Of a stretch of DNA of 64,000 nucleotides, positions 26,588-27,148 are shown one piece after another. Position 1 is the first letter of the stretch. The number at the start of each line of letters is the position of its first letter. The stretch covers positions 4,565,501 to 4,629,500 of the forward strand of contig NZ_CP095061.1 in assembly GCF_022921055.1 (NCBI RefSeq), given 5' to 3'. The notes under the pieces are model-generated. The model did no database searches. It worked only from the letters and a program-made list of their open reading frames with translations, and was not told the DNA's origin. A program made the translations under genes and the position numbers. The stretch is from Hymenobacter volaticus (GTDB taxonomy: Bacteria; Bacteroidota; Bacteroidia; Cytophagales; Hymenobacteraceae).

Positions 26588-26617
26588 TTGCGAATATCAA
26601 ATCCGGTTATACATTTG
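26588..26617 (+). promoter_or_regulatory. Bacteroidota-type promoter of the sulfur operon
   Basis: TTG (26588-26590), 19-nt spacer, then TACATTTG (26610-26617): an excellent match to the TTG/TAnnTTTG promoter. Transcription would start near 26622, just before the riboswitch. A small inverted repeat, CGGCAA-AA-TTGCCG (26540-26553), lies upstream and could be an operator. Confidence 0.75.
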
Positions 26618-26659
26618 CAACACCTAGCACGGTACTCCCCGCTTACGGTGGGACAGTTT

Positions 26660-26780
26660 TTTCAGATTTATACAGAAGTGGCGAGAGAACAGGCTCCCTG
26701 ACCCACTGGCAACCTTCGTTGAAGCGAAAGGTGCCAATTCCTGCCCGATCCGGTATTGCCGGCGGGAGAGATAAGTTGAG
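26660..26780 (+). ncRNA. SAM-I (S-box) riboswitch
   Basis: The order and content match the S-box aptamer: P1 left side near ATTTAT, then AGAAGTGGCGAGAGAACAGG, CCCACTGGCAACC (conserved GGCAACC), GGTGCCAATTCCTGCC (conserved), a P4-like hairpin, and GAGAGATAAGT closing P1. It precedes metY, the classical target. High SAM would be expected to switch the downstream operon off. The expression platform is not obvious because a short ORF starts only a few bases after P1. Confidence 0.85.
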
Positions 26781-26784
26781 TACC

Positions 26785-26943
26785 ATGAAAAACAACCTGA
26801 ATTCCGCTTTCCATTTCCTATCCGCTCTAGTCGCCTTGCTGCGCACTGGCTCGCCGATGGGTTTTCGTATGTCGCCTGTAGCTGTTCCAGCCGCCCGAAT
26901 GCGAATGCGCCGCTGTTGTAGCGCTTGTTGTTGCTGTTGTTAG
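26785..26943 (+). CDS. Candidate cysteine-codon leader peptide
   Basis: 52-codon ORF starting ATG 26785, immediately after the riboswitch P1 helix. It ends R-R-C-C-S-A-C-C-C-C-C-stop, so 7 of its last 9 sense codons are Cys (all TGT/TGC). Codons before the run are unremarkable. The Cys run lies in the loop of a possible 6-bp GC stem, GCCGCT (26909-26914) with AGCGGC (26950-26955), so a ribosome stalled for lack of Cys-tRNA would block that stem. This is the logic of an attenuation leader for sulfur genes. It could also be a chance ORF; internal ATGs give shorter versions. No homology is claimed. Confidence 0.5.
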   Translation: MKNNLNSAFHFLSALVALLRTGSPMGFRMSPVAVPAARMRMRRCCSACCCCC

Positions 26944-27148
26944 TCGCATAGCGGCTCCGGCACACTCCTCCCTCCTTATTGCCCCGCTTGCAAGCACCGG
27001 TACGCCTTAGGCTCCTGTGCTAGGTCTGCCACACCTGCGCCACGGCGTTTCGGTTGGCACTAGGCGGTCCTGCTACAGCTCTTTGTGGCCTCATTTCCAG
27101 CAGAATACACTCTTTCTTCCTACATACATTCCTTAACTCAGCTGAACC

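Follow-up and report, generated by a model that had tools for sequence, protein, structure and literature searches.

A predicted SAM-I riboswitch and a conserved cysteine-codon leader peptide precede metY in Hymenobacter as a probable two-input control unit

Riboswitches and leader peptides are usually viewed as separate devices, and the leader of metY in Hymenobacter volaticus raises the question of whether the two can be joined into one control unit matched to its gene, as they apparently are here. The locus lies in a 64,000-nucleotide stretch of the genome (the window), whose features are collected in Table 1. The earlier note on this DNA had described a promoter, an S-box aptamer and, right after P1, a 52-codon ORF with a cysteine-codon run at its end ahead of metY, and each of these is present. 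The promoter matches the Bacteroidota form TTG-N17-21-TAnnTTTG, a pattern found within 100 nt upstream in 76 of 136 S-boxes but in only 1 of 136 mononucleotide shuffles. The aptamer is a full-length covariance-model match above the gathering score of RF00162, the sole match reaching that score in the window, and is predicted to bind SAM. The leader ATG starts 7 nt past P1, and the ORF ends in RMRMRRCCSACCCCC, encoding CCSACCCCC-stop. Five TGY codons followed by TRR occur once in the 7.1-Mb genome, at this leader, and the reversed control pattern does not occur in it. The peptide matches no NCBIfam family at E<=1.

Table 1. Predicted features of the metY leader and the genes downstream in the window
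Feature	Position	Strand	Basis
Promoter	26588..26617	+	TTG 26588-26590, N19, TACATTTG 26610-26617; matches Bacteroidota form
SAM-I riboswitch aptamer (S-box), RF00162	26665..26777	+	Covariance model, 69 bits, cut-off 44.4, model 1-108
Leader peptide ORF	26785..26943	+	ATG 26785, TAG 26943, 52 codons + stop
Cys/Met-codon tail, last 15 codons of leader	26896..26940	+	Codon counts, conservation
C-rich, G-poor stretch past leader stop, candidate rut region	26954..26983	+	Pyrimidine content; function putative
metY, O-acetylhomoserine sulfhydrylase	27149..28543	+	TIGR01326, 685.2 bits, cut-off 495.1
metX-like homoserine O-acetyltransferase, start not fixed	28675..29841	+	TIGR01392, 347.5 bits, below cut-off of 500
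SsuA-family sulfonate-type substrate-binding protein	29902..30945	+	TIGR01728, 270.7 bits, cut-off 163.5
SsuC-like ABC permease, frame broken near 31525-31550	31001..31863	+	N-terminal piece below NCBIfam cut-off
ABC transporter ATPase, nitrate/sulfonate type	31924..32667	+	Best TIGR01184, 228.1 bits, below cut-off
Homoserine dehydrogenase, start not fixed	32607..33941	+	NF004976, 315.8 bits, cut-off 205

The SsuC-like permease is read in two frames, with the break beside a CAGGGG run, so that either the assembly has slipped there or the gene is broken. Among the metY loci fetched, the closest named ones are from Hymenobacter (H. nitidus, 88%; Hymenobacter sp. CA1UV-4, 86%).

The composite leader is almost certainly real and conserved. 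In what follows, L-numbers denote loci and G-numbers genomes, and the genus set comprises 37 genomes including that of H. volaticus (G000). A MetY protein is matched in all 59 genomes compared, H. volaticus included, in some through paralogues only. At least four cysteines stand among the last 15 leader codons upstream of metY in 36 of the 37 genus genomes, the exception being G026, whose leader ends in RMRMCWGCWM with two, and a SAM-I aptamer was found by cmscan at each of the 29 genus metY loci scanned (out of 37), window included. In five genus genomes (L054, L065, L067, L068, L071), an extra gene stands between the Cys leader and metY, belonging to the AhpC/TSA family in L054 with similar ORFs in the other four, and the leader is retained there at 915-978 nt from metY. 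Codon usage follows the leader frame, which holds 219 TGY codons in genus metY leaders versus 71 and 2 in the other two frames. Cysteine takes 218 of 432 codons in the last 12 positions of genus leaders versus 24 of the 3211 codons that nine window genes contain, and TGT makes up 125 of 218 cysteine codons in leaders versus 4 of 24 in those genes; the recount behind the genus metY figures adds an 'RM' filter and supplies no figure for Met. Twelve close leader pairs give no clear purifying signal, their tails showing 19 synonymous and 42 nonsynonymous codon differences, in a test where one pair is out of register and the genus metY rows include two wrong sites (L059, L072).

Beyond the genus, the pairing of S-box and Cys tail recurs at some metY loci but not at others. 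Eighty metY loci were fetched, 59 being examined by pattern and 20 by cmscan, and the aptamer was found at 14 of these 20 and, in another cmscan set, at 9 of 12 metY loci outside the genus. An S-box with a tail of at least three cysteines precedes metY in Pedobacter, Sphingobacterium, Cyclobacteriaceae and Flavobacteriaceae bacterium 14752, as well as in metagenome-assembled genomes of Haliscomenobacter, Lewinella, Saprospiraceae, Bernardetia and Cytophagales; across these other Bacteroidota families, the peptide bodies are unrelated and the Cys tails shared. At L159, an S-box with a weak Cys tail precedes metY. Weeksella and two Bacteroidales metY loci carry a single cysteine in a Met-rich leader end (RMRC in L169, MAMPMPGC in L170, MSMRMPGC in L206). 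S-box/metY loci without a Cys tail are L156, L157, L163, L165, L168, L010, L259 (two cysteines), L270, L274, L278, L280, L282, L292 and L298; L270, L280 and L298, all of family f19, have an ORF start 9 nt past P1 and no Cys run, and are natural Cys-blind variants. At L160 and L187, the S-box lies far upstream of metY with no Cys tail, and in Chlorobi, Ignavibacteriae and Bacillota (L186, L195, L200, L204), the S-box pattern likewise occurs with no Cys tail. No S-box was found by cmscan upstream of metY at L082, L084 and L085. At L084, an 18-codon Cys-rich frame lacks an ATG, and L174 has a three-Cys frame.

The Cys leader is gene-specific among the loci examined, and its recurrence before cysH, a permease gene and an ATP-grasp gene goes beyond what the earlier note described. 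The S-box set is a sample drawn as 97 plus 40 from listed matches, of which 136 were used, L132 being left out as its aptamer is identical to that of L131 in the same genome, though at a different place. Gene labels are best tblastn matches to chosen references, with 8 of the 136 unlabelled. Leaders with at least three cysteines follow the S-box at 16 of 20 cysH, 13 of 14 permease, 8 of 8 ATP-grasp and 10 of 19 metY loci, and at none of the 28 metH, 17 metB, 11 metX, 4 hom and 8 unlabelled loci. Pooled into groups formed post hoc, with the permease and ATP-grasp references picked after the leaders were known, these are 47 of 61 (cysH, permease, ATP-grasp, metY) versus 0 of 60 (metH, metB, metX, hom), with a Fisher probability of 3e-21 that ignores both relatedness and the post hoc grouping. 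Domain matches identify a PAPS reductase, an amino-acid permease and, weakly, a RimK-type ATP-grasp protein (26.9 and 22.9 bits, cut-off 21). Outside the genus, L293 carries a cysH leader with seven cysteine codons. In the H. volaticus genome itself there are eight SAM-I matches, and at L002, L003 and L006 the S-box is followed by a GTG-started ORF with at least four cysteines in its last 15 codons, while L001 and L004 have none.

Methionine codons accompany the cysteine codons. Among 23 leaders from other genera, selected by Cys rather than Met and with the weak tails of L159 and L035 left out, Met accounts for 25 of 345 codons in the tail but 3 of 585 in the body (p=9e-9) and is present in 17 of the 23 tails. 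Short leaders within the genus have Met at 43 of 540 tail versus 4 of 540 body codons, and Met accounts for 47 of 3193 codons in window genes. Since Met codons are enriched beside Cys codons, it may be Cys and Met together that are sensed, and the tail could report on both.

The spacing of these elements suggests how they might act together. In 46 leaders, 7-14 nt separate the end of P1 from the leader start, so the SAM-bound aptamer would be expected to close the leader start and halt leader translation. Initiation in Bacteroidia depends on adenines upstream of the start and on reduced RNA structure rather than on Shine-Dalgarno pairing (PMC9976891), and the composite leader bears on how riboswitches act in this class, whose ribosomes do not use Shine-Dalgarno sequences. 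In two further cases it is a long gene itself whose start follows P1, after 11 nt at L265 (metX) and 9 nt at L296 (gene unassigned), and these two S-boxes are likely direct translational switches. When the aptamer is free and charged tRNA-Cys or tRNA-Met is scarce, the ribosome would pause in the Cys/Met tail, and with a ribosome held at the leader end, RNA polymerase would proceed into metY. With no ribosome held, either because SAM is high or because Cys and Met are plentiful, transcription would end before metY, with Rho acting at the C-rich stretch past the leader stop as the leading candidate, an output that would resemble tnaC-like, Rho-dependent leader-peptide control. Full expression would then be expected only if SAM and sulfur amino acids are both low. 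The direction of this response is provisional, because stalling in the tail would leave most of the C-rich stretch exposed and because Rho action is often promoted when a ribosome is held upstream.

Two-input control by the metY leader is the best-supported reading of the sequence comparisons and probably the correct one. Conservation, gene specificity, the distance from P1 to the leader start, the initiation mode of Bacteroidia and the arrangement at L265 and L296 count in its favour, as do the scarcity of strict terminators, the Met enrichment, the rho gene and the sulfonate-type transporter in the operon. Counted against it are the lack of a conserved fold, the S-box/metY loci without a tail and the synonymous and nonsynonymous counts in close pairs. 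Such a joined unit could tell whether sulfur is limiting (low Cys) or the methyl donor is (low SAM), and the many-Cys, one-Cys and no-Cys leaders provide natural variants for a direct test. Whether the arrangement constitutes a Bacteroidota-wide SAM-I class is evenly balanced in our judgement; in such a class, a translated leader peptide would serve as the expression platform, three signals (SAM, charged tRNA-Cys and tRNA-Met) would be read, and the targets would form a sulfur-assimilation regulon, with the metB and hom S-boxes as plain SAM terminator switches.

Rho as the output step is put forward tentatively, as a candidate somewhat short of probable. Past the leader stop of genus metY leaders, pyrimidine content of at least 75% occurs in 24 of 36 at +10..+29 and 28 of 36 at +20..+39, then in 0-6 of 36 from +40 to +159, and again in 13 leaders at +160 and 17 at +180, this second part lying near metY. 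Among short leaders, 28% are pyrimidine-rich at +10..+29, and windows inside the ORF reach 53%. A C-rich stretch that is strong in metY leaders only and a second pyrimidine-rich part near metY both count against a Rho-dependent output. A rho gene is matched in the H. volaticus genome (G000:C1:4105880-4106988); the match (L299, L300) consists of two pieces in different frames of the assembly.

An output without termination, in which leader pausing alters access to the metY start or mRNA decay, is unlikely, though it fares best among the alternatives. It would fit the absence of a conserved terminator and the short distance of merely 94-109 nt from leader stop to metY in L151, L152, L161, L162 and L172, but the leader is retained far from metY in the five genomes with an inserted gene, though it abuts that gene, and alifold found no conserved pairing. 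The alifold comparisons yielded z-scores of -0.81, -0.64, -0.58 and 0.21 for four of five leader sets, the fifth being structureless, with two metY sets holding two wrong rows. A conserved hairpin at or past the Cys run was accordingly rejected as a candidate, alifold doing no better than shuffles and the metY redo being structureless; in the cysH set, a 7-bp hairpin at the first Cys pair falls within the shuffle range.

Classical attenuation, in which pausing at Cys codons flips an intrinsic terminator/antiterminator fold before metY, is distinctly improbable. The short ORF with a Cys codon run and a conserved frame that such an attenuator requires was found, while a conserved terminator with an alternative antiterminator was absent in strict scans and alifold. 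The earlier note had placed the Cys run in the loop of a possible GC stem (26909-26914 with 26950-26955); the complementary GCCGCT and AGCGGC are there in the sequence, but the alignment of 31 genus metY leaders gives no consensus fold, that site included, and a stem attenuator is unsupported because relatives do not conserve this GC hairpin enclosing the Cys run. Some leaders do have a hairpin and a short T run, such as L044 (-13.7 kcal/mol at +154). Strict terminators nevertheless occur in just 7 of 36 leaders of either kind, metY or short, with no common position, compared with 16 of 17 metB and 4 of 4 hom S-boxes, and Cys leaders have them in 3 of 49 cases within 140 nt of P1 and in 9 of 49 within 330 nt. 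Cys leaders are not alone in missing a terminator, because the metH (2/28) and metX (0/11) S-boxes together have 2 in 39; these 39 (e.g., L004, L024, L268) carry no Cys leader. Looser terminator scans, with matches in 24 of 45 Cys leaders versus 29 of 225 shuffles, were replaced by the strict scan because many loose matches counted the TGT run as a T-tract.

It is very improbable that the Cys-rich nascent peptide, rather than charged tRNA, is the sensor, responding to metal or redox state as in CruR, a uORF that senses copper through CXXC. Upstream ORFs of this kind with Rho-dependent output exist, as PMC9426467 describes for CruR, but the peptide bodies here are unrelated, the cysteines are spaced differently from leader to leader (CCCCCCC to CMCYC), Met codons are enriched as well and none of the 60 Met-gene S-boxes carries such a leader. 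That the tail has no regulatory role, being a chance or repeat-born ORF after the S-box, is scarcely credible: its TGT richness would let repeat growth add codons and the close pairs are without a clear purifying signal, but the frame is kept in the genus and in other families, the tails are missing from Met-gene S-boxes, and the same tails are Met-enriched.

The components of two-input control have precedents, each described here from the accessible part of its source. S-boxes are known in Bacteroidetes/Chlorobi (PMC2211319), leader peptides precede amino-acid operons in F. psychrophilum (PMC9723704), and long 5' UTRs with sORFs occur in B. thetaiotaomicron (PMC7366714). The present aptamer agrees with RF00162 SAM-I riboswitches in its full-length match above the curated cut-off, but P1 is followed by a leader ORF and not by a terminator, as it is at metB and hom S-boxes, or directly by the start of the gene. 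Cys-codon leader peptides in Actinobacteria share a short ORF with Cys codons near its stop before cys genes and also lack a conserved terminator hairpin, which led their authors to suggest Rho (PMC1262725); they belong to another phylum, that text notes no riboswitch in front of them, and the Met enrichment is a feature of the leaders described here. The uORFC-8-2 upstream of cysS in Rhodobacterales is likewise a uORF with tandem Cys codons and a proposed attenuator, but it has an intrinsic terminator, and the accessible text mentions no riboswitch (PMC8632094). A metabolite riboswitch and a uORF share one leader in M. tuberculosis, where the B12 riboswitch acts with uORF translation that alters the downstream gene through suppression (metE) or termination-reinitiation (ppe2) (PMC11260477); here, too, the aptamer adjoins a predicted uORF, but the aptamer differs and the accessible account of the B12 system mentions no amino-acid codon run. 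In Xanthomonas, SAM-I also binds uncharged initiator tRNA, and one leader thus receives SAM and an amino-acid supply signal (PMC7270179), but there the tRNA binds the RNA directly, whereas here codons would report charging. No report of an S-box combined with a Cys leader was found in the literature searched, mostly without subscription papers.

TonB-dependent receptors, placed in neither gene group, have a leader with at least three cysteines after the S-box in 2 of 7 cases. S-boxes precede such receptors at L005, L008, L027, L126 and L136, in some cases with a GTG-started ORF that contains Cys codons; in H. volaticus, the ORF after the S-box has one cysteine at L005 and two at L008. The pieces QHxCC and VCM are common to TonB-receptor and cysH-type leaders.
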